From: a virus
Virus record (IMG/VR): IMGVR_UViG_3300023116_000192
Span: 1 to 32,427 of that record
Length of the DNA stretch: 32,427 nt
Direction: 5' to 3' (one strand)
The translations under genes were made by a program, and so were the position numbers. Below, piece after piece: positions 2,687 to 12,296 of this stretch (its first letter is position 1; the number at the start of each line of letters is the position of its first letter). The notes below the pieces were generated by a model. That model ran no database searches. It saw only the letters and a list, made by a program, of their open reading frames with translations, and had not been told where the DNA came from.

Positions 2687-2916
2687 TGTTCTGTAACCTT
2701 TATAGTAATCTTGGGAATAAAGTCTGTGGCGGTGAAATAGTCAGTTTGAAAGGAAAGCACATTGGCTTGTTCTGCCAATGATTGTGCCAGCTCATCACTT
2801 GGCACTAAGTGATTGTTAATGATTCTTGACAAGTAGCCAAGTGTGATTCCTGTTCTTTCAGCGAGTAAAGAAAGTTTAACATGCTTTTTAAGAAACTGTC
2901 TTTTGTAGACCTTCAT
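2683..2916 (-). CDS. XRE/Cro-CI-type HTH regulator
   Basis: This 77-aa protein has a helix-turn-helix at about residues 13-45: KLSLLAERTGITLGYLSRII, followed by a typical third-helix region ending in LAEQANV. The size suits a Cro-like or short repressor that consists only of the DNA-binding domain plus a short β tail. It is the first gene of the leftward operon (regulator, acidic protein, membrane protein, recT-like). It faces the initiator gene across a 133-base divergent control region with a TTGACA promoter. This layout is that of a phage genetic switch. No cleavable CI C-terminal domain and no integrase are seen, so lysogeny cannot be claimed. Confidence 0.8.
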   Translation of the reverse strand: MKVYKRQFLKKHVKLSLLAERTGITLGYLSRIINNHLVPSDELAQSLAEQANVLSFQTDYFTATDFIPKITIKVTEQ

Positions 2917-2949
2917 TGATTGTCTCCTATGGTCAAAGGTTGTGATGTA

Positions 2950-2978
2950 TTGTTAACTTCTTTTTTTTGTCATGTCAA
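2950..2978 (-). promoter_or_regulatory. sigma70-type promoter for the leftward regulator/recT operon
   Basis: On the minus strand a perfect -35 box TTGACA (2978-2973) is followed after 17 bases by TAACAA (2955-2950). The predicted start lies about 27 bases before the regulator's ATG, leaving room for the AGGAGA ribosome site at about 2927-2922. The same 133-base region must also drive the + strand initiator gene. There the best candidates (TTGAAA at 2988 or TTGATA at 3007) are weaker and not resolved. Operator sites for the regulator were not identified. Confidence 0.55.
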
Positions 2979-3049
2979 ATAAATTTGTTGAAAAGTTTTT
3001 TTAAAGTTGATAAACCATATTTAGCTTTCATATACACAGGAGAAGAAAC

Positions 3050-3607
3050 ATGAAAGAACATGAAGTCAGAAAGGCCATTATGAGCCGCAAAGACCTTACC
3101 GATGGTGACAAGGTAGTCATGCTTGCGATACTCTTAACAGTAGATTGGGAAACATGGACCAATCCAACCAGCTTAAAAGCGATTGCAAATTTGACAGGCA
3201 AGAAACGACCAAACATTGTAAGACACTTCAAGAAGCTGGAGCAGTTAAAGCTGATAAGCAGAGATTGGTTTACAAGCCAAGTTTGCAAAGCTCCAATTAT
3301 GAAAGTCCACCTTGAAAACATCAAGCAACCTGTTATCAATATGATAACACCACCTGTTATCAAGATGATAACACCCCGTTATCAAGATGATAACACCACC
3401 TGTTATCAAGATGATAATACCCCTGTTATCAATATGAGAACAGATGCTGTTATCAATTCGATAACACTAACAACTAACTTTAATAATCAATCTATATATC
3501 AATCTAATATCAATATGTATGGATTGAACGTTGGAGAGCTTTGGGGCGATGAATTAAGAGAAGAAGTAGAGGAGAATTTAAGAGCAAAGAAGGAAGGTGA
3601 GAAATGA
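3050..3607 (+). CDS. replication initiator (lambda O-like arrangement) with internal iterons
   Basis: This 185-aa protein has a winged-helix-type N-terminal domain at about residues 14-85. It includes a HTH around SLKAIANLTGKKRPNIVRHFKKLEQ, as in phage replication initiators and replisome-organiser proteins. Residues about 94-140 are encoded by six near-identical DNA repeats and look low-complexity (PVINMITP, RYQDDNTT). After a polar AT-rich linker, the C-terminus is a short acidic helix that could contact the helicase loader. A strong AGGAG site precedes the ATG. The stop overlaps the start of the DnaC-like gene (gaaATGA). Position, domain and embedded repeats together indicate an O-type initiator binding its own gene, although sequence similarity to lambda O itself is not evident. 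Confidence 0.75.
   Translation: MKEHEVRKAIMSRKDLTDGDKVVMLAILLTVDWETWTNPTSLKAIANLTGKKRPNIVRHFKKLEQLKLISRDWFTSQVCKAPIMKVHLENIKQPVINMITPPVIKMITPRYQDDNTTCYQDDNTPVINMRTDAVINSITLTTNFNNQSIYQSNINMYGLNVGELWGDELREEVEENLRAKKEGEK
3331..3466. repeat. six palindromic iterons, putative replication origin
   Basis: Six copies of a 19-bp element, consensus TGTTATCAAKATGATAACA, start at 3331, 3355, 3377, 3401, 3424 and 3448 (spacing 24, 22, 24, 23 and 24). Each is an interrupted palindrome, TGTTATC-N5-GATAACA. Copies 1 and 2 fit perfectly, copy 3 lacks the first T, copy 4 has ATA at the end, copy 5 has GAGAACA, and copy 6 has a different centre (AATTC). Because 22 and 23 are not multiples of three, the same DNA is read in different frames in neighbouring copies, so it is the DNA, not the peptide, that is kept. 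An AT-rich stretch (about 3467-3530) follows, as in lambda ori. Confidence 0.8.
3467..3530. other. AT-rich stretch next to iterons, candidate DNA-unwinding element
   Basis: Directly after the sixth iteron the sequence becomes strongly A/T rich, with runs such as actttaataatc, tctatatatc and ctaatatcaata. In lambdoid origins the initiator-bound iterons lie beside such an easily melted region where the helicase is loaded. The DnaC-like loader gene begins about 75 bases further on. The role as an unwinding element is inferred from position and composition. Confidence 0.5.
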
Positions 3608-4524
3608 AAAGATTAGGTGATGAACTTGGAAAGCTCTCAAGACAGCTTAAGGAAATGAGAAAGACAGTAGCTGAAATGAACAGCAATAAGCCAAAGGTCA
3701 AAGTCCAGCTTCAAGACTTTAGACATATCAATCCAAGCAACCTTGAAGAAGAAGACTTGGTCTTTAAAGATGCACCTTTCTTTCAATGCAAAGTTCTTCC
3801 ATTCTGTGGTCGGTGCAAAGAGGGCTTCATTTATCAAGCAAATGAACAGAATACACTTGACGCTAAGGTGTGCAAGTTCTGTGAGATACCAAGAAGAAGA
3901 ATGGCCAAACTCACCAAGCTCCAACTTCCAAGTGATTCTTATGGTATGCACTTCAAAGCATATGAATGGGATTCACCACACCAACAGCAAAGAGTCCAAG
4001 GCTTATTGGATTGGATCAAGAAACCAAATGAAAGACAGATACAAGCAAGTCCTTCTTTATATCTTCGTGGTGATCCTGGCAATGGCAAGACCTCCCTGCT
4101 TTACTGCCTAGCAAAAGACGCTATCTTCAGCGGTCAGCGTGTTATGTATATCTCACACAATCAGCTTATTGACCAAATCAAAAGATCATTCAATGGTGAG
4201 AAGGACCCATTGAAGCATTGGCTTGATAAGACTGATTTACTTCTCTTTGATGAATTCTGTGGTGTTGGTGGTGGTGCAAATCAAACACAATGGTTTAAAT
4301 CGACCACAGCCGATATAGTTCAAAAGATATATGAGCGGTGGAAGTCAGGCCAGTTGTCAGTTGTCTTGACTAGCAACTTGACCAATCAACAGCTTAAAAC
4401 AGCGATTGACTACAACAAAGCTATCTTAAGCAGATTCATTGCCATGTTTGGTGAGCCTGTCAACATGATAGGAAGAGACCGAAGAGTTACAGACAATCAC
4501 CTTCTTAACGCTTGGATAGGATAA
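3604..4524 (+). CDS. DnaC-like helicase loader (AAA+ ATPase)
   Basis: This 306-aa protein has a zinc-ribbon-like N-terminal part (C68-x2-C71 ... C90-x2-C93) and a DnaC/IstB-type AAA+ core. The Walker A motif GDPGNGKT is at 156-163, Walker B LLLFDEF at 212-218, a sensor-1-like VVLTSNLT follows, and an arginine (ILSRF) near the C-terminus suits the arginine-finger region. DnaC-type proteins load the DnaB helicase onto the melted origin. No phage helicase is seen, so the host DnaB is the likely client. The start overlaps the initiator stop, which makes an O-P-like pair. The length fits DnaC/DnaI relatives with an N-terminal zinc domain. A hairpin terminator follows immediately. Confidence 0.85.
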   Translation: MKRLGDELGKLSRQLKEMRKTVAEMNSNKPKVKVQLQDFRHINPSNLEEEDLVFKDAPFFQCKVLPFCGRCKEGFIYQANEQNTLDAKVCKFCEIPRRRMAKLTKLQLPSDSYGMHFKAYEWDSPHQQQRVQGLLDWIKKPNERQIQASPSLYLRGDPGNGKTSLLYCLAKDAIFSGQRVMYISHNQLIDQIKRSFNGEKDPLKHWLDKTDLLLFDEFCGVGGGANQTQWFKSTTADIVQKIYERWKSGQLSVVLTSNLTNQQLKTAIDYNKAILSRFIAMFGEPVNMIGRDRRVTDNHLLNAWIG

Positions 4525-4560: not shown

Positions 4561-4862
4561 ATAGAAAATAGGAGGCTATTGACTGCAACAAGTATACAGC
4601 AACCAATATCCACTTCAAGAAAAACAAGTGATGAATAAGTGTTGACTTGTCTTGAAAAAGTCTTTTGTATGGTAAAGAATCAGATAGTGTCACCTTCTTT
4701 AATTCTAATTAACATCTTTTCAGTGACAGTAAGTTGTTTCGTTTTGTGTTAGTTTTTAAAGGTCCTTATTCATAGCTTTTTTTTACTATCTGGTTACTTT
4801 TTTGTTTTCTTCTCAGTCTCTACAGTGTATACTTAGTTTCTCATGTAGAGAAGGAGACAAAC
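4561..4862 (+). promoter_or_regulatory. 302-base non-coding leader with candidate promoters
   Basis: No gene of convincing size is seen. The stretch is A/T rich with T runs. One candidate promoter is TTGACT (4642-4647)-17-TTGTAT (4665-4670), and a second -10 box TATACT is at 4828-4833 with a poor -35. An 8-bp inverted repeat CAGATAGT (4681-4688) / ACTATCTG (4785-4792) brackets the middle, and TGTCAC/GTGACA (4688-4693, 4723-4728) lies inside it. These may be regulatory or chance. A strong AAGGAG ribosome site (4851-4856) serves the next gene. This is the probable start of the middle-gene operon. Confidence 0.45.
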
Positions 4863-5144
4863 ATGGAAAAGAAACAAAGAAGGCAGCCTATCACCTTCAG
4901 AACAAGTCAAGAGAACATTGACTATCTTGACGAGATAGCCACAATCAACAGGCGGTCAATAAGCACACTTGTGGATTGGGGTATTACCTATGTCATTGAA
5001 CACCATCGAAGAGCTGGAACAGGAAATCAAACAGGCCTTGAAGTACTACAACTTTTGGGATCAGCAAAGACACCTGCCAACAGCAGCACAAACAGCGGAC
5101 TACTTTGCCAGCAGACTGCAAACACTAAGGAGCAAACTAAATGA
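4863..5144 (+). CDS. ribbon-helix-helix DNA-binding protein
   Basis: In this 93-aa protein residues about 8-47 look like a CopG/MetJ-type ribbon-helix-helix. A basic strand (RQPITFRTS) is followed by a helix (QENIDYLDEIATIN), a turn (RRSIS) and a second helix (TLVDWGITYVIEH). Such proteins bind operators as dimers and regulate small phage operons. The start is well supported by AAGGAG six bases upstream. The C-terminal half (about 48-93) is low in hydrophobic pattern, rich in T/S/N/Q/G, and overlaps a more protein-like ORF in another frame. The TGA overlaps the ATG of SSB (ATGA), which argues that the frame is truly read to its end. Confidence 0.7.
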   Translation: MEKKQRRQPITFRTSQENIDYLDEIATINRRSISTLVDWGITYVIEHHRRAGTGNQTGLEVLQLLGSAKTPANSSTNSGLLCQQTANTKEQTK

Positions 5145-5196
5145 CCTTAAGCGTGAACGAAGTGACCTTGTTGGGCCACCTAGGAAAAAACCCTGA
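4990..5196 (+). CDS. overlapping out-of-frame helical ORF (possible nested gene)
   Basis: In the +1 frame relative to the ribbon-helix-helix gene, an ATG at 4990 opens 68 codons that run into the SSB gene. The predicted product is a convincing amphipathic helix protein: TIEELEQEIKQALKYYNFW, a short loop, then helices around YFASRLQTLRSKLNDLKRE. It looks more like a folded protein than the host frame does over the same bases. The ribosome site is weak (GGGG nine bases upstream). Possible explanations are a true overlapping gene, a frameshift extension of the RHH protein, or a sequencing indel. The terminal residues overlapping SSB look arbitrary. Confidence 0.4.
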   Translation: MSLNTIEELEQEIKQALKYYNFWDQQRHLPTAAQTADYFASRLQTLRSKLNDLKRERSDLVGPPRKKP

Positions 5197-5542
5197 GTTT
5201 GTTGATGAACATCAACAAGTAGCTATCTTCTCACTCGCAACAAATGAAAGCTATCAAGACAAGCGTGGAGAGTGGCAAACTTCAACAGAGTGGCACAGAA
5301 TAAAAGTTCGTGGTCCACTTGCTGAAAGAGCAGTAAGAAGCCTTAAGAAAGGTTCAAGAGCTTACATTAAGGGCAAAGTGTCAAGCTATGAAAACAAGAG
5401 CGGTGTGCGTAAGTGGGAAATCATAGCTTTTAAGTGTGGTGGTCTTGATAAGACACAAGCCCACTTCGATGATTCAAGCGAACTCTTACCACCCGAACAA
5501 CCACAGGCAAACACCTACCCCAAATCACCTTGGGGAAAATAA
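5141..5542 (+). CDS. ssb: single-stranded DNA-binding protein (OB fold)
   Basis: This 133-aa protein matches bacterial-type SSB over residues about 3-105. It has the opening strand NEVTLLGHLGKNPEF, then VAIFSLATNESYQDKRGEW, EWHRIKV, a GPLAERAVRSLKKGSRAYIKGKV helix/strand, and WEIIAFKC. It would coat single strands at the replication fork and work with the origin proteins and the RecT-like protein. The C-terminal tail is short and ends in SPWGK. The acidic DDDIPF-type tip that recruits host partners is missing, so it may not bind the usual host SSB interactome. The ATG overlaps the RHH stop and has AAGGAG six bases upstream. Confidence 0.9.
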   Translation: MTLSVNEVTLLGHLGKNPEFVDEHQQVAIFSLATNESYQDKRGEWQTSTEWHRIKVRGPLAERAVRSLKKGSRAYIKGKVSSYENKSGVRKWEIIAFKCGGLDKTQAHFDDSSELLPPEQPQANTYPKSPWGK

Positions 5543-5547
5543 CCACA

Positions 5548-5928
5548 ATGAAAGATTGGAAGACCATGAACATGACACACCAATTTCCTATTCCCTTTGA
5601 CTTTTCAACACTCCGAAATATCAAAGGGCGAAAGCTACCCAAAGAAACCAAGTTGAAGATGATTAAGGAAGGTCTTCAAGCTGGTCTACCCTTGAATAAG
5701 ATCAGTGTTGAAATTGGCTATTCACCATCTTATTTGATGAATGTCTACAACAAGAACAGCGGTTTTGAAAACCACAAACTATATGATGACCTTTGCAGAA
5801 TCATGGAAGAGGTAAACAGTGGTCGAAGTGTTGAAGACCAGCTAAAGGCCACCATTAAAGATCAACAAAAACTAATTGCTGAGTATGAAACAATCGTTGA
5901 ACAGCTTTTAAAATTACTCGACCGATAA
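5548..5928 (+). CDS. HTH plus C-terminal coiled-coil protein
   Basis: This 126-aa protein is counted from the ATG at 5548, just after the SSB stop. An ATG at 5566 is an alternative, and the TTG at 5530 is unlikely. The central part (about 45-75) resembles a HTH: an entry helix KLKMIKEGLQAG, then PLNKISVEIGYSPSYLMNVYN. The last 40 residues form a likely coiled coil (EDQLKATIKDQQKLIAEYETIVEQLLKLL). It could be a dimeric DNA-binding regulator. The next gene begins directly at its stop codon. No named family is recognised. Confidence 0.6.
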   Translation: MKDWKTMNMTHQFPIPFDFSTLRNIKGRKLPKETKLKMIKEGLQAGLPLNKISVEIGYSPSYLMNVYNKNSGFENHKLYDDLCRIMEEVNSGRSVEDQLKATIKDQQKLIAEYETIVEQLLKLLDR

Positions 5929-5958
5929 ATGACAAACAAACCACAGGAGAAAAACAAC

Positions 5959-7926
5959 ATGTCAACTAAACCAATGAAAGACGCTAATCCTTCAGCCTTC
6001 CTTCTTCGTGCAAGTACTTTGATGCACAGCCAGCAATATATGAGAGAAATATATCAGAACAGTGTTGAAGCTGGTGCAACTGACATAAGATTTACCTTTT
6101 GCCGACCTTTTTACAAAACACAAAAGATTAAAAGAGCAGCTATCATTGACAATGGTCCAGGTATGTCAAAGAAGGAGCTTGAAAGATATACCAATGAAAC
6201 AAACAGTTCTTCAAAGTCTACAGGCGGTATTGATGAAAACTTTGGTGTTGGTCTTAAAGTCTCCACCTTGCCCTTCAATCAATATGGTGTGGTAATCATT
6301 TCAAGAACAAAAGAACAGCCCTTTGGTTCAATGATATGGCTTCATATTCATAAAGGTATTGCAGGTGCTAGAGGTTTGACAAGTGCTGAAAATATGATTG
6401 AACGAATAGACACACAAGGAGAGATTGAAGAAGTCATTGATTATGTGGTGGACTTTGAGGAAGTCATCGAGCGTGGCTATGACAAATACACAGTCGATGG
6501 TGTGGATTGGCTTAATTGGTGGGATAATAACTTTTACAACACAACATCCCGAAAAAACTTTATTACAGGCACTGCCATCATTTTGTGTGGTAATAGGCCA
6601 GGAAGATGGGAAGATACCTTTCAAGATATGCAATTAAAAGGCTATCCATATTTGAATGACAGATATTTAACTTATCCTATTATTCCCCAAGCCCTAGTTT
6701 CAAGGATTGTAGGTGTAAAACATCAAAAACTTACAAGTCCTCTTGAATTATTAAACAGCATTTCAAAAGAACTTCAACCATTAAACTTTAAAGGTTGGAA
6801 GATTAGGACTTTTTTAAAACAAGGAGCAAGTAGTGGTAATGGCTATGGACAATCTTCAATATCCAAACAACAATTTAATCAGTCTATCATTTACAAAAAT
6901 GAAGTGTATGGTGACTTTGGTCAACTATCACCACAAACCATTGCTTCAATAAGAAACTCTTGGGGTATATATTACAAGAATGTAGGCAAGAAAATCACCT
7001 TGTTGATTGAACCACCAATTTACACCAAGTCTTCTAAGTGTGGCGTATTTCCAAACCAAGAAAGATCAAAGCTATCTTGGAAAGAATCACCAACTGCAGA
7101 ACAAACCGAACATCTACCACTCGATGAACTAAAGCAATACTTCCAAGAGAATATGCCTAGGGAACTTGTGGACCTTATTGAAGAAGAAGCCCTTGGCCAA
7201 ATTTTCAAGAAGTATGAATCAAAAGCCGCTAAGAAGATGGAACGTTGGTTGAAGATTCCAAAAGACAACCGAAAAGCAAAAAAAGGTGATGGCTTATTCA
7301 TTGGTGATATTCATGGAACTTTGATGGCAGGTGACAAAGTTTGTGACTTGTTTGGGTTAATGAATGGCAATCCTTCAAAGCCAAGTGAATCATTGCCTGG
7401 CACTTCAAGCGATAAGAAACCAAAGACCAAAGAAGAACTTGAAAGAGAAGAAAGGAAGAAGAAGGCAAGAAAGGCAGCCGAAGCAAGCAGACGTGAAGCC
7501 CCAAGAGTAAGATTCATTTCAAAAGACCATGATGACTATGAAGAAAGATTCTTGGTTGATGGTCATCTTTATGGTGCTTTCTATGAACCACCAAGTGCAA
7601 AGGGCAATCATGGAAATGTCTTGTGGATCAATAAAGACCATAATCTTCTTCAAGGTTATATTAATGTGGCAGAAGATTGGTTGAGTAAGAAGAATATCAC
7701 TTTTAAGCGTAACTTTATCTTACAGCACTTTGTGATTCCATTTTGGGAAGAATATGCACCTTGCACAATTCAGCATGGCAAATCACTTCCAGAGTTCAAG
7801 AAAGATTCAAACTCTTTTTCAGCTGAAAGAATCACTTGGGCCTTAATGGGCTGCCAAGCCTTCTTTGAGATGGACATGGTAAGACTTTATAAGCAATACA
7901 AACTAATTGAGGTAATAGCGGTATGA
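5959..7926 (+). CDS. GHKL-type ATPase (Hsp90/MORC/MutL-like ATP-binding fold)
   Basis: This is a 655-aa protein from the ATG at 5959, chosen because AGGAGA lies eight bases upstream. An ATG at 5929 directly after the previous stop would add ten residues without a ribosome site. The GHKL signatures are clear: N-box REIYQNSVEAGATDI (Glu30, Asn34), G1 box DNGPGM (64-69) and G2 box FGVGLK (95-100). After the nucleotide domain come about 350 residues without a recognised match, a lysine/glutamate-rich helix (around 500-525), and a C-terminal domain of about 130 residues. There is no TOPRIM or histidine-kinase DHp motif, so it is neither a topoisomerase nor a kinase. It lies among replication genes, and its role is unknown. 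ATP-driven clamp formation on DNA or protein is an inference. Confidence 0.8.
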   Translation: MSTKPMKDANPSAFLLRASTLMHSQQYMREIYQNSVEAGATDIRFTFCRPFYKTQKIKRAAIIDNGPGMSKKELERYTNETNSSSKSTGGIDENFGVGLKVSTLPFNQYGVVIISRTKEQPFGSMIWLHIHKGIAGARGLTSAENMIERIDTQGEIEEVIDYVVDFEEVIERGYDKYTVDGVDWLNWWDNNFYNTTSRKNFITGTAIILCGNRPGRWEDTFQDMQLKGYPYLNDRYLTYPIIPQALVSRIVGVKHQKLTSPLELLNSISKELQPLNFKGWKIRTFLKQGASSGNGYGQSSISKQQFNQSIIYKNEVYGDFGQLSPQTIASIRNSWGIYYKNVGKKITLLIEPPIYTKSSKCGVFPNQERSKLSWKESPTAEQTEHLPLDELKQYFQENMPRELVDLIEEEALGQIFKKYESKAAKKMERWLKIPKDNRKAKKGDGLFIGDIHGTLMAGDKVCDLFGLMNGNPSKPSESLPGTSSDKKPKTKEELEREERKKKARKAAEASRREAPRVRFISKDHDDYEERFLVDGHLYGAFYEPPSAKGNHGNVLWINKDHNLLQGYINVAEDWLSKKNITFKRNFILQHFVIPFWEEYAPCTIQHGKSLPEFKKDSNSFSAERITWALMGCQAFFEMDMVRLYKQYKLIEVIAV

Positions 7927-8270
7927 CTTGGCAAAACAGAGCAAAGCAGCTTAAGCAGCAAGGCTTGACCATTGAGGAAGTCTTACAAGTCTTGAAAGAT
8001 GAAGGCTATCGAAGACCAAACGGAGAATGTTACACAAGATGGTTCATTCAACCATTCGTCAAGGGTATTAATTCACAGCGTGGTTATCGCAAGACAGGTG
8101 TTTATGATCTTACACCACAGGAAAGGAAGTTGTATGATGAAGAGATGAAGGAACGTCAAAGACAACGGTCCAAGCGGTGGAAGGAAAACAACCTTGAACG
8201 TCATCGAGCGTATCAAAAGCAATATCAACAGGAATACAGAGACTTACTGAAGGGGCTTAAACAAGCATGA
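7923..8270 (+). CDS. small basic HTH protein resembling a recombinase DNA-binding tail
   Basis: In this 115-aa protein residues 5-50 (AKQLKQQGLTIEEVLQVLKDEGYRR, then PNGECYTRWFIQPFV) match the pattern of the helical DNA-binding part of large serine recombinases (grammar 'L...G.s..eIa..L...G..tP.G..W....v...l'). The catalytic domain is absent, so it is not a recombinase. The remainder is a long, very basic and glutamine-rich helix (about 68-113). It is probably a DNA- or RNA-binding accessory protein. It overlaps the ATPase gene by ATGA at its start and thyX by ATGA at its end, so all three are probably co-translated. Confidence 0.6.
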   Translation: MTWQNRAKQLKQQGLTIEEVLQVLKDEGYRRPNGECYTRWFIQPFVKGINSQRGYRKTGVYDLTPQERKLYDEEMKERQRQRSKRWKENNLERHRAYQKQYQQEYRDLLKGLKQA

Positions 8271-8938
8271 TTCATTACATATATGAAGATGAAATTGGAA
8301 GTGTGGAACTTATTGACCACATGGGAACGGATAAGAGTGCGGTCAATGCTGCTAGAGTATCATTCTTAAAAGACAGCAAAGGCAAGGAACTGACTGCCAG
8401 AGATAAGAATCTTATCAACTTCTTGGTGGGTCACAGCCATACTTCACCTTTTGAGCACATGCAAGCAACCTTTAGGTGTACCGTTCCTTTATTTGTCAGA
8501 AGTCAGGTGATGAGACACAGAACATTCTCTTACAATGAAGTATCAAGGCGGTATACTGCAGACAATCTCCAATTTTGGAAACCACAGGTCTTTAGAGGTC
8601 AAAGCAAGTTAAACCTTCAATGCTCAGAAGGCACTACAACCGAGCAAGAGACTTGTCATAATCTTTTTAACCATTGCATAGCTGAAACATTAAAGCACTA
8701 TCACAGCTTGCTTCAAAAAGGGGTAGCAAGGGAGATGGCAAGGGCTATCCTACCACAAGCCCTATATACTACCTTTTACATGACAGGCAGTGTTCATAAT
8801 TGGGTTAAGTTCTTAAAGTTGCGTCTTGATGAACATGCACAGATTGAAACACAGTTGATGGCCAAGGCAATCAAGCAAGACCTTTTTGAGCTTTACCCCA
8901 TAACCATGAAGGCCATGATGAAAGAAGATAATGGATAA
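8267..8938 (+). CDS. thyX: flavin-dependent thymidylate synthase ThyX
   Basis: This 223-aa protein has the defining ThyX motif RHR-x7-S, with R83-H84-R85 and S93 in RHRTFSYNEVSRRY. It also has the preceding SPFEHMQATFRCTVPLFVRSQ and the C-terminal helix (LPQALYTTFYMTGSVHNW, then LRLDEHAQIE) that completes the dUMP site. ThyX makes dTMP from dUMP using FAD, NADPH and methylenetetrahydrofolate. Phages carry it to supply thymidylate during replication. The length is normal for the family. It starts at an ATGA junction and its TAA overlaps the next ATG, at the end of the replication block. Confidence 0.95.
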   Translation: MIHYIYEDEIGSVELIDHMGTDKSAVNAARVSFLKDSKGKELTARDKNLINFLVGHSHTSPFEHMQATFRCTVPLFVRSQVMRHRTFSYNEVSRRYTADNLQFWKPQVFRGQSKLNLQCSEGTTTEQETCHNLFNHCIAETLKHYHSLLQKGVAREMARAILPQALYTTFYMTGSVHNWVKFLKLRLDEHAQIETQLMAKAIKQDLFELYPITMKAMMKEDNG

Positions 8939-9171
8939 TGGATAATAGTAAACAACTTGAACACACACACGCGCGCGTAATCACTGACCTTGTAGAATTA
9001 AGCAAGCGATTAAAAGAGAAAGTGATTCTTGAAGGTGACTTGGCAAAAGAGAGTCAAGACCTTTACAATTATATTATATCAACCCTCTATGAAGCATACG
9101 GTGAATTATATGGCTGGAACAAAGAAGAAAACAGCGACCAAGAGAAAAAGCCCGAAGCTATCCAAGACTAA
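8938..9171 (+). CDS. small acidic helical protein before TerS
   Basis: This 77-aa protein is not recognised. It is predicted mostly helical (RVITDLVELSKRLKEKVILEG, then AKESQDLYNYIISTLYEAYGELYGW) with an acidic, lysine-containing tail. The ATG overlaps the thyX stop (TAATG). Its last 62 bases overlap the start of the terminase small subunit in another frame. The codons for residues 9-13 contain an 18-bp alternating purine/pyrimidine tract. It may be a packaging or replication accessory protein; there is no direct evidence. Confidence 0.6.
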   Translation: MDNSKQLEHTHARVITDLVELSKRLKEKVILEGDLAKESQDLYNYIISTLYEAYGELYGWNKEENSDQEKKPEAIQD

Positions 9172-9577
9172 AGACACCATCAAGAAAAGTGTGATTGACC
9201 ACCTAGAGGTTGGAAACACTATTGAAGCAAGTGCCTTCAAGTCAGGTATTAGTAGAGGAACATATTATAATTGGTACAATGCAGATGAGCAGTTTGCGCT
9301 TGCTTGTGATGAAGCTATGGCCAAAGCAGAAGAAGCCCTTCTAAACCAAATTATGAGAATGGCCATCACTCGTGATGATTGGAGAGCACCAGCTTGGATT
9401 CTTGAAAGACGTTTTCCCGACCGTTGGGGAGCAAAGCAAGAAATCAAGATGGAGACCACAAGCAAGTCCGATGGAACGAATGAAGTCTTATCAATGCTTG
9501 AACAAATTAAGAAAGGTCCTTCACAGCCACAGGAGAAGTGTTTTGACACAAAAACTGTGAAGGACCAATCAACCTAG
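9110..9577 (+). CDS. terS: terminase small subunit
   Basis: This is a 155-aa protein from the ATG at 9110. An open frame extends back to a TTG at 9029, but that part reads as nonsense inside the preceding gene. A basic N-terminal tail is followed by a HTH (NTIEASAFKSGISRGTYYNWYN) and then the helix region with the typical small-terminase motif DWRAPAWILERRFPDRWG. A polar tail follows. Small subunits recognise the phage packaging site and hand DNA to TerL, encoded 57 bases downstream. It overlaps the 77-aa gene by 62 bases, and its ribosome site is weak (ggtga). Confidence 0.85.
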   Translation: MAGTKKKTATKRKSPKLSKTKDTIKKSVIDHLEVGNTIEASAFKSGISRGTYYNWYNADEQFALACDEAMAKAEEALLNQIMRMAITRDDWRAPAWILERRFPDRWGAKQEIKMETTSKSDGTNEVLSMLEQIKKGPSQPQEKCFDTKTVKDQST

Positions 9578-9634
9578 AAGACTAGGAGACCTTTAGGGCA
9601 TGACACTCCCTTGAAAGTATAGATAACAGATATT

Positions 9635-11011
9635 ATGACAGCTATCAAACTAAACGAACTACAAAGGCAAATCATCACAGCCATTAAAGATGAACAGAAG
9701 GTAATCAGTGCAAGGTGTGGCTGGGGTAGTGGAAAGACCTGCGCTTTGGTCTTCTCCATTCTCTTCATTGCCAAGACAAGACCAGGCACTTCCACCTTGG
9801 TAGTCACTGACACCACACCAAGATATAACAGTGTATTAATGCCCGAAATGCAAAAGTGGTTAAGTCCTTTGGGGTGGACTTACAACCACACCAACAAGCA
9901 ATGGCTTGACCCCTCCACAGGTTCAACAGTGTGGTGTCGTTCCTATTATCGACCAGGAACAAGAGATGCTACCCACAACCCCCTTGAAGGTTTAAATATC
10001 ACAAGCGGTGTATGCCTTATTGATGAATGTCAAACCCTTGATGTTGAGGTGGCACATAAAGCCCTTGGTCGTCTTCGTGCTGGCCCTTCACCAATCTTGA
10101 TATTGGTGGGCTTGCCTGTGGCAGATGCTTGGTGGTGCTCAATGGCAGAAAACGCAGGCTACATTCCTATGTTGTTCACAAGCTATGTCAACCAAGACAA
10201 CCTTGCTGATGAATGGTTTGAAGCCACCAAGCTATTACCTGCAGAAGAACGTGAAGCTATGATTATGAATAAGCCCAAACCACCAACAGGCTTGATTTAT
10301 CAAGAGTTCACAGAAGGCCACATTATTGAAGATTGGACTTACAAGCCCACCATGACAGGAAGGATTGCCATAGATTGGGGATTCAGAAAACCAAGCGTGT
10401 TGATTATTTGCCATGATGAAGACCTTGAAGCTGATATAATATGTCATGAGTTCAACCCAAAGGAAGTGACCACTGAGCAGTTGACAGCCCTTATTCTTTC
10501 AGTAGCTTGGCCAAGGTCATTAAAAGACCAAGCACCAAGTGATAGAATATGGTTAGACACAGGGGTGGCAGACAAGGCAGGCAAGGCAAGGAACGACCAA
10601 ACAGGCAAAAGTGCCTTCCGAGTAATGAGACAGCCACCACCTTTGGGTCTTGGCCTTCCACTAAGATCAACCACTGATCCAATCAAGGTGGACATCTTGA
10701 ACGGTGTGCAGCGGTTGAAACGTGCCTTCAATTCAAGACGCTACTTGATAACCAAAGAAGTTTGGGAACGTGGGGAACGTGTGACAGGCAATAGCATAAG
10801 GAAGGCTTTGTTGTCTTATGCTTGGGATAGCAAGGAACAACCCAAGAAAGATGGAAGGGAAGACCCACTTGATGCTTTAAGGTATGACTGTATTATCTTT
10901 AATTGGAATGATGTTGCAGTTGACCAAGGCTACAAGCCAAGAGGTGGTGGAATAAAGACAAGAGAAAAAAGACGTGTTAGTGTTGGGGGGTCAAAAGTAA
11001 GGAGCTTTTAA
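9635..11011 (+). CDS. terL: terminase large subunit
   Basis: In this 458-aa protein the N-terminal ATPase has Walker A CGWGSGKT (28-35), Walker B VCLIDE (126-131, with the catalytic Glu131), and a coupling-motif region. The C-terminal nuclease begins at IAIDWG with Asp247 as first metal ligand and ends with the family motif DPLDALRYD. It pumps DNA into the prohead and cuts it. The length is typical, perhaps slightly short. A clear ribosome site is not obvious before the ATG at 9635 (ataacagatatt). The TAA overlaps the ATG of the cyclase gene (TAATG), so cyclase translation is tied to that of TerL. Confidence 0.92.
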   Translation: MTAIKLNELQRQIITAIKDEQKVISARCGWGSGKTCALVFSILFIAKTRPGTSTLVVTDTTPRYNSVLMPEMQKWLSPLGWTYNHTNKQWLDPSTGSTVWCRSYYRPGTRDATHNPLEGLNITSGVCLIDECQTLDVEVAHKALGRLRAGPSPILILVGLPVADAWWCSMAENAGYIPMLFTSYVNQDNLADEWFEATKLLPAEEREAMIMNKPKPPTGLIYQEFTEGHIIEDWTYKPTMTGRIAIDWGFRKPSVLIICHDEDLEADIICHEFNPKEVTTEQLTALILSVAWPRSLKDQAPSDRIWLDTGVADKAGKARNDQTGKSAFRVMRQPPPLGLGLPLRSTTDPIKVDILNGVQRLKRAFNSRRYLITKEVWERGERVTGNSIRKALLSYAWDSKEQPKKDGREDPLDALRYDCIIFNWNDVAVDQGYKPRGGGIKTREKRRVSVGGSKVRSF

Positions 11012-11835
11012 TGGAACTCATAGAAACCAAGCTGGCCATAGTTCTACTTGACCTTATTGGGTCAACCAAGTTTGTCCAACGTGCAGGTGCTATGAAGGCA
11101 GCCAAATGGTTGCAATACCATGACAGGCTTACACGTTCCTTGATTCTCAAGTTTAATGGTCGAGAGATAGACCGGTCAGATGGTTTTTTACTTTCCTTTG
11201 AAAGACCTGTTGATGCTGTGAACTTTGCCTTGCACTATCAACAGCACATACCACCAAAGACCAAGCTACAATGTAGGATTGGGATTCATTGGGGAGTTGT
11301 GGTGGAAGTCAAGCAAGATGAAATTTATACCTTGGGTGGTGCAAAGCAAGTTGAGCTTGAAGGGGTAGCTAAGAACATAGCAGCAAGGACCATGTCACTT
11401 TGTGGAGCGGGTCAAGTCCTCTTAACCCAAGAAGCCATGAAGGCAGTCAAGCACAGAACCAACAGGTTTACCCCAAAGGGCACAAGGTATGCTTTAGCAG
11501 GTGAATACAGGTTCAAAGGTGTAAGAGAAACACAAATCATCTACACAGTTGGTTCAACCATTGAAAGTCTCCAACCACCCAAGGGAAGTGAGAAGGTTAA
11601 GCGTCTTGGTGGACCTAAGCGAATAAAAAGCAGAATGAGAGACAAGAAGTTGAAAGAGTGGATATGGTTCTTATTAACCAGAACAGCACTTGTTTTCATT
11701 TGCTGCTTAATCACCATGGTTGGTCCTGCCTTACTCGATAAGCACAAGCGCCTTATGAGCGGCCTTGAAATATGGTTTGGTTGGATTGATCCCATAGCGG
11801 AATTGATTCAAAACATAATGGAGTTGATACCATGA
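11011..11835 (+). CDS. class III nucleotide cyclase domain with C-terminal membrane anchor
   Basis: In this 274-aa protein residues about 7-185 match a class III adenylyl/guanylyl cyclase homology domain. First metal Asp14 lies in LLDLIGST, second metal Asp57 in the variant SDGFLLSF, then come RIGIHWG (89-95) and transition-state Asn122 and Arg126 in KNIAAR, followed by GAGQVLLTQEA. All core catalytic residues are therefore present. The usual 'KTxGD' is changed to DRSDG and the base-selecting position seven before Asn122 is Glu115, so the base used cannot be read off. After a basic linker, a TM helix lies at about 217-242, then an amphipathic helical tail. It overlaps terL (TAATG) and the next gene (ATGA). 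Codon style matches the neighbours. A cyclase between terL and portal is unusual. Confidence 0.82.
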   Translation: MELIETKLAIVLLDLIGSTKFVQRAGAMKAAKWLQYHDRLTRSLILKFNGREIDRSDGFLLSFERPVDAVNFALHYQQHIPPKTKLQCRIGIHWGVVVEVKQDEIYTLGGAKQVELEGVAKNIAARTMSLCGAGQVLLTQEAMKAVKHRTNRFTPKGTRYALAGEYRFKGVRETQIIYTVGSTIESLQPPKGSEKVKRLGGPKRIKSRMRDKKLKEWIWFLLTRTALVFICCLITMVGPALLDKHKRLMSGLEIWFGWIDPIAELIQNIMELIP

Positions 11836-12296
11836 AAGATGAAAAGAAAAAGAGTCATGTTGAATTTACCAAAGATCAAAAGGCAAGGCGTGGCTGGTGG
11901 TTTTCAGTCTTCTTCTTAATCTTAGTTGTGGCCCTTATTCTGTTCTTAACCTATGTCAAGATAGTTGATGAAAACAGAGATGTGCTAGTGGGAATACTTG
12001 GTGTTATCACAGGCAGTATTTCAAGCATGGTAGCCATTGCCAGCGGTCGTGATCCTTCAGAAGTGGAAGAGTTGAAGGATAAACTAGCAAGTGCAAATGC
12101 TGACAGAGAGGCCTTGATAGCAAGACTTCGTGATGCACAAATCCAAATGCAGTTGAAGACCGACCAGCTTATGGAACTTCAAACAGCGGTCATTGATAAG
12201 CTATCCATGTTTGCCAATCAACACCCGATCAAAACACAAAGTGAAGAGCAAGTTATCTTGCACCCAAAGGTTGAAGAATGGATTCCAAAGGGATAG
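11832..12296 (+). CDS. two-TM coiled-coil membrane protein paired with the cyclase
   Basis: This 154-aa protein has a very basic N-terminus, TM1 at about 21-45, TM2 at about 51-72 (VLVGILGVITGSISSMVAIASG) and a heptad-rich cytoplasmic coiled coil at about 76-125. Both ends are likely cytoplasmic. The start codon overlaps the cyclase stop (ATGA), so the two are made together. It could be an effector, a receptor or a scaffold for the cyclase, or a holin-like protein simply placed here. No cyclic-nucleotide-binding domain, TIR domain or other known effector is visible. The stop codon lies in the left arm of an 11-bp inverted repeat. Confidence 0.7.
   Translation: MKDEKKKSHVEFTKDQKARRGWWFSVFFLILVVALILFLTYVKIVDENRDVLVGILGVITGSISSMVAIASGRDPSEVEELKDKLASANADREALIARLRDAQIQMQLKTDQLMELQTAVIDKLSMFANQHPIKTQSEEQVILHPKVEEWIPKG

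Follow-up and report, generated by a model that had tools for sequence, protein, structure and literature searches.

A GHKL ATPase family with an unmatched C-terminal domain in a variable slot of uncultivated phage genomes

The virus record IMGVR_UViG_3300023116_000192 (32,427 nucleotides), which was taken over its whole length and is called the window below, encodes an ATPase, distantly related to MORC, MutL, Hsp90, and T4 rIIA, of an undescribed, previously unlabelled family that is found in numerous uncultivated phages and on certain bacterial plasmids. The gene is a resident that has been repeatedly lost or replaced, and it is accessory. Its product is predicted to combine an otherwise known GHKL and transducer plan with one new element, a C-terminal domain of no recognized fold. 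In the reading that we tentatively favor, with a probability of roughly 0.45, the protein would be an accessory, ATP-gated, dimeric GHKL-transducer clamp used in intergenomic conflict, with counter-defence as the leading direction. To our knowledge, phage GHKL ATPases besides topoisomerases and rIIA are little described. The rIIA protein itself is poorly understood even after decades. The present proteins constitute a second phage GHKL family, with a confidently modelled but unmatched C-terminal domain, and they are encoded by small tailed phages, by contigs of 338 to 376 kb, and by plasmids that carry them beside Gabija.

Gene and genomic surroundings

The record also encodes SSB, a DnaC-like loader, a lambda-O-like initiator, RecT, ThyX, and a terminase, and the ATPase gene (Table 1) ranks with the most AT-rich 2-kb stretches of this record, with a GC content of 0.377 compared with a mean of 0.425. 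The start at 5959, which had been chosen in an initial sequence-only reading of this DNA, is more likely than the first ATG at 5929 because AGGAG stands 9 nt upstream and because family conservation, as seen with the full-length relative in viral contig L003, begins at that methionine. The gene had been placed between those of an HTH protein and ThyX; this order is correct, although a small gene intervenes before thyX and the upstream protein is only HTH-like. This upstream protein is missing from L003, and it weakly resembles the C-terminal part of the nuclease-like protein that occupies the same slot in L089. In L011 (positions 2782 to 3642), ThyX is extended at its N terminus by about 80 aa, which include an HTH-like stretch; this is a variant arrangement of the window's pair of small gene and thyX.

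Table 1. Features of the ATPase locus in the window
Feature	Position	Strand	Basis or remark
SSB gene	5141..5542	+	Pfam SSB, 1.8e-18; upstream flank of the variable slot
HTH-like/coiled-coil protein, 132 aa	5530..5928	+	Pfam AraC E value of 0.08, hence HTH-like only
Segment missing from near-identical contig L067	5889..7925	+	2,037 bp, replaced there by 48 bp
GHKL-transducer-CTD ATPase gene	5929..7926	+	ORF; 665 aa from first ATG, 655 aa from likelier start 5959
Shine-Dalgarno sequence AGGAG	5945..5949	+	9 nt ahead of ATG 5959
GHKL ATPase domain	5989..6594	+	aa ~21-222; Pfam and secondary structure of the model
N-box REIYQNSVEAGAT with E40 and N44	6043..6081	+	aa 39-51
G1 box IDNGPGM	6145..6165	+	aa 73-79
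G2 box/end of ATP lid NFGVGLK	6238..6258	+	aa 104-110
Predicted transducer (S5-like) domain	6601..7113	+	aa ~225-395, approximate limits; fold search and secondary structure
Arg379 codon	7063..7065	+	Candidate finger residue
Predicted disordered linker	7264..7416	+	aa 446-496; pLDDT < 50
Predicted C-terminal alpha+beta domain	7483..7923	+	aa 519-665, ~147 residues; pLDDT 93 when modelled alone
115-aa protein gene	7923..8270	+	Downstream slot flank; ATGA overlap with ATPase gene
ThyX gene	8267..8938	+	Pfam Thy1, 4e-50

Domain architecture and conservation

HATPase_c_3, with 34.1 bits against a cut-off of 25 and an E value of 3e-8, is the sole Pfam domain above the cut-off and places the protein, by sequence, in the GHKL ATPase superfamily, which confirms the initial assignment from the N, G1, and G2 boxes. 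These boxes are near-invariant in a 26-sequence alignment (A6), as are the motifs GT.....G, Y..E.Y, and P...R..L. E40 and N44 are kept in all 24 homologues that cover those positions and, by analogy, may act as the general base and the Mg2+ ligand, respectively. Arg379 is invariant (26/26 sequences) and is likewise a candidate, by analogy, for a transducer finger contacting the γ-phosphate of ATP. Across five pairs of close relatives, dN/dS is about 0.2 (0.17 to 0.26), which indicates purifying selection on the ATPase gene.

An AlphaFold2 model built on the A6 alignment has a pLDDT of 78, with the linker and the ATP lid disordered, the latter showing low pLDDT at aa 93 to 107. The GHKL domain alone is recognized by sequence, in line with the original impression that no known middle domain follows it. 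At the level of the model, this impression does not hold: a middle domain is predicted after all, because Foldseek matches the GHKL and transducer part to the corresponding parts, transducers included, of Hsp90 (E value of 4e-12), MORC2 and MORC3 (about 1e-10), and TopoVI-B and MutL (about 1e-7); SMCHD1 is also among the matches. The model thus puts the protein in the group with GHKL and S5 transducer domains to which MutL, MORC, topoisomerases, and Hsp90 belong. The TM-scores of the fold matches are only 0.3 to 0.5 because domain orientations differ, and the claim therefore concerns the order in which the domains follow each other and not how they superpose.

The C-terminal domain matches no PDB sequence and no PDB fold (best E value, 0.65). 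A counterpart in a known topoisomerase, kinase, or chaperone family, which would have overturned the initial description, was looked for by PDB sequence and fold searches and none was found. Searches of the window protein against PHROGs, PADLOC (which holds no model for the ATPase), and PDB sequences returned no family. Pfam matches to DUF3408, in the C-terminal part of the window protein, and to SACS, VPR, and CdiI_2, in a few members, were rejected as below the cut-off or of low complexity.

Comparison with known GHKL systems

In the GHKL domain, the closest proteins by sequence profile are MutL and TopoVI-B (E values of about 2e-6 to 1e-5), with which the family also appears from the model to share the GHKL and transducer fold, but it has neither the MutL nor the TopoVI C-terminal part. 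A MutL identity was rejected on finding no MutL C-terminal dimerization or endonuclease domain and no PDB sequence or fold match for the domain that stands in its place. Likewise, no TOPRIM domain (Pfam) and no topoisomerase partner among the scanned neighbours were found for a type II topoisomerase ATPase subunit. A histidine kinase was rejected because the GHKL domain starts at aa ~21 and no DHp/phosphoacceptor or other Pfam domain precedes the HATPase.

MORC and paraMORC1 to -5 proteins (Iyer et al. 2008, PMC2292703) resemble the family in that a GHKL domain is followed by an S5-type transducer with an invariant basic residue, in having a C-terminal extension, and in the nuclease genes found nearby at related loci. 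The motif that defines MORC, GhXhhpXXRhl, lies in the S5 domain (PMC2292703), and a pattern search found it in 0 of 26 family members. MORC membership was therefore rejected, and what stands of the early comparison with MORC-like or Hsp90-like ATPases is the fold, as predicted with AlphaFold2 and Foldseek. MORC and paraMORC ATPases with GHKL and S5 domains act with nucleases in restriction systems (PMC2292703), and paraMORC1 to -5 are described in operons with an SFII helicase, a methylase, or an RE-fold/HNH nuclease. In contrast, the window gene has no helicase/methylase restriction operon, its neighbours being those for SSB, the HTH-like protein, ThyX, and terminase; the family is mainly viral, and its C-terminal domain includes no recognized RE-fold or TIR extension. 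VcSduA, a GHKL-Shedu protein in which a GHKL domain is joined to a nuclease in defence (PMC12137116), is similar in its GHKL ATPase, its clamp-like middle domain, and its conflict setting, but the window protein has no DUF4263 nuclease domain in Pfam. A C-terminal RE-fold nuclease of the paraMORC3/VcSduA type (E-D-ExK; DUF4263) was rejected, as there was no Pfam match, PDB fold, or evident motif.

Distribution of the family

At least 25 homologues of the window ATPase, with 18 to 71% identity, are present in metagenomic viral contigs, the one in L003 being the relative at 71%. A degenerate motif scan (NFGxGxK(V/I)..L..N..YG) identified 19 contigs, each with a homologue at the motif that is full length where the contig, being a fragment of a viral genome, allows. 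An alignment-based scan found 31 loci, among them the contigs of 338 to 376 kb, and on such jumbo-size contigs the ATPase occurs in other gene contexts. In one 362-kb contig (L045:8004-11449), the ATPase gene is followed by genes for a dCMP deaminase and a D12-class adenine methylase, and these two gene types are also found near the ATPase in small phages. Among 50,697 reference phages, no match was found to the window protein or to those of L003, L045, and L047, in a search that was validated by a terminase control, which gave matches. Scans of genome contigs also gave no relative.

Variable gene content between SSB and ThyX/terminase

The contig L067 shares about 94% DNA identity with the window at 4801 to 5888 and 7926 to 9700, and the ATPase gene between these flanks is absent from it. 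Since the slot of L067 contains neither a GHKL nor a nuclease gene, no function is obligatory there, and this natural near-isogenic pair with and without the gene makes its role directly testable. Among the best 80 of 559 confirmed terminase relatives, ranked by how closely their terminase resembles that of the window, 30 loci extend 4.2 kb or more beyond the terminase gene on its upstream side; the ATPase is present at 10 of them, 2 of which are duplicates. In the L084/L083 pair, with flanks about 90% identical (~89 to 91%), the ATPase is exchanged for a gene encoding a 284-aa nuclease-like protein that bears a D..IEIK motif, and in the L096/L098 pair (flanks, 89 to 91%) it is exchanged for an HTH-coil gene. 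The same slot holds genes identified by Pfam as HNH (L118:6348-6965) and GIY-YIG endonuclease (L129:3648-4292), both possibly homing endonucleases. Diverse slot proteins with a PD-(D/E)XK-like D..(I/V)E.K signature, an assignment made by motif only, with weak Pfam matches, are found in L089, L090, L088, L097, L083, L124, L111, and L123, and many of them carry HTH and coiled-coil tails. In the L009/L027 clade, the ATPase gene is directly followed by one for a 303-aa protein with the RE-like motif FE..SDG..ECK. The slot occupied by the ATPase amounts to a list of candidate conflict genes.

The terminase and ATPase trees have most clades in common, yet they conflict significantly, most clearly in the case of L020, which has nearly the same terminase as L011 but a strongly diverged ATPase. 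Because most clades are shared, recent acquisition was rejected as a full explanation; for the most part, the gene is a long-term resident, not a frequent traveller.

Plasmid homologues and Gabija

More distant full-length homologues are carried by alphaproteobacterial plasmids, and those of Agrobacterium and Dinoroseobacter align end to end with the family profile (positions 3 to 647). The C-terminal profile alone failed to reach the plasmid homologues, and hhalign of the C-terminal part against them gave a probability of 69. The plasmid modules L136:4800-10069 and L137:4748-11486 each contain a small gene, the GHKL ATPase gene, and the Gabija genes gajA and gajB, matched with 730 and 590 bits, respectively. 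The ATPase gene lies directly upstream of gajA/gajB in Agrobacterium and one gene upstream in Dinoroseobacter, where L137 has an extra 461-aa gene; the small gene upstream of the ATPase is common to both plasmids, and a caspase-like gene follows the Gabija module in Agrobacterium. The two proteins are closely similar, and their association with Gabija is therefore a single observation in evolutionary terms. Next to the Acidisoma and Rhizobium homologues, no Gabija gene was found within the stretch seen.

Possible function

Conflict between phage and host or between phages is the probable role of the gene, rather than basic replication, since near-identical phages lack this gene or have nuclease-like genes instead. 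This reading draws on the dispensability of the gene, its swap partners, its company on plasmids, and the literature on MORC/paraMORC, rIIA, and VcSduA. In the proposed mechanism, ATP would close the N-terminal GHKL domains into a dimer, as in MutL, MORC, and topoisomerases; the transducer would relay the ATP state, with Arg379 as the likely γ-phosphate finger; and the family-specific C-terminal domain, on its flexible linker, would supply dimerization or the binding and choice of a target. We infer a dimeric clamp acting on DNA or protein in counter-defence, which may block or remodel a host immune complex on DNA. DNA work or strand clamping, as initially suggested, is plausible from the architecture. 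Counter-defence is favored over the exclusion of competitors because the gene is carried by phages and in most cases has no partner nuclease, and what had been one suggestion among several is strengthened as a category by the accessory slot, the nuclease-like alternatives, and the Gabija genes beside plasmid homologues, the role itself being a candidate. Against conflict, a role in DNA metabolism would also be in keeping with an operon location between genes for replication and packaging, and the Gabija link is seen in only two closely related plasmid modules. A more specific proposal, that this is a phage/plasmid conflict ATPase which on plasmids works with or regulates Gabija and whose phage form uses the new C-terminal domain to interfere with DNA immunity of a Gabija-like or restriction type, is improbable in all its parts together.

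It is possible, though doubtful, that the protein is instead the ATPase half, with a regulatory task, of a nuclease module by which a phage or plasmid keeps out competing phages or elements, following a logic like that of paraMORC or VcSduA; the nuclease would then come from a neighbouring gene or from an alternative occupant of the slot. The alternation with nuclease genes, the 303-aa protein of the L009/L027 clade, the plasmid homologues adjoining Gabija, and the coupling of GHKL domain and nuclease in VcSduA (PMC12137116) all fit such a module, but the window, L003, and most clade members have no adjacent nuclease gene, and the C-terminal domain shows neither a known nuclease fold nor, in its alignment, an evident conserved ExK-type motif. 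Rather unlikely is an accessory factor of replication/recombination or packaging, a MutL/MORC-like clamp working on phage DNA with SSB and RecT. The structural relatives MORC2 and MutL act on DNA, MORC2-DNA structures are among the fold matches, and the position between SSB and ThyX/terminase is kept throughout the lineage; however, the gene is missing from near-identical phages sharing RepO, DnaC, SSB, and RecT or is replaced by unrelated genes, and it has other contexts on jumbo-size contigs. The replication control once suggested from the position is weakened by the same relatives.

A divergent homologue of T4 rIIA, a membrane- or lysis-related protector, is very unlikely. GHKL proteins of the rIIA type are classed among counter-defence factors (PMC7824862), T4 rII guards against RexAB (PMC8594841), and both proteins are phage GHKL ATPases of 650 to 900 aa with a C-terminal half of their own; rIIA proteins also dominate the list in a fold search of viral models. 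Nevertheless, hhalign of the family against eleven rIIA proteins (probability of 91) aligned 109 GHKL columns and nothing beyond, the invariant motifs of the second domain differ, and the family profile scores rIIA sequences far below MutL and TopoVI-B. Since the family gave no match to an rIIA PHROG and the scanned window proteins, a subset of the ORFs, gave none to an RIIB PHROG, membership in rIIA was rejected. An Hsp90-like chaperone for phage proteins is scarcely credible: Hsp90 is the best single PDB fold match, but the C-terminal domain was not matched to the Hsp90 C-terminal dimerization domain in the fold search, and the gene is dispensable.

A cyclase gene pair downstream

Between the terminase and portal genes, the window encodes a protein with a class III nucleotide cyclase domain (11011 to 11835; Pfam Guanylate_cyc, 4e-6; TIGR04510, 152 bits, below the cut-off), directly followed by a small protein (11832 to 12296) that weakly resembles SLATT_fungal 2TM effectors (E value of 0.0024). 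This pair (11011 to 12296) is conserved through the lineage and recalls the cyclase/effector pairs of Pycsar-type systems.
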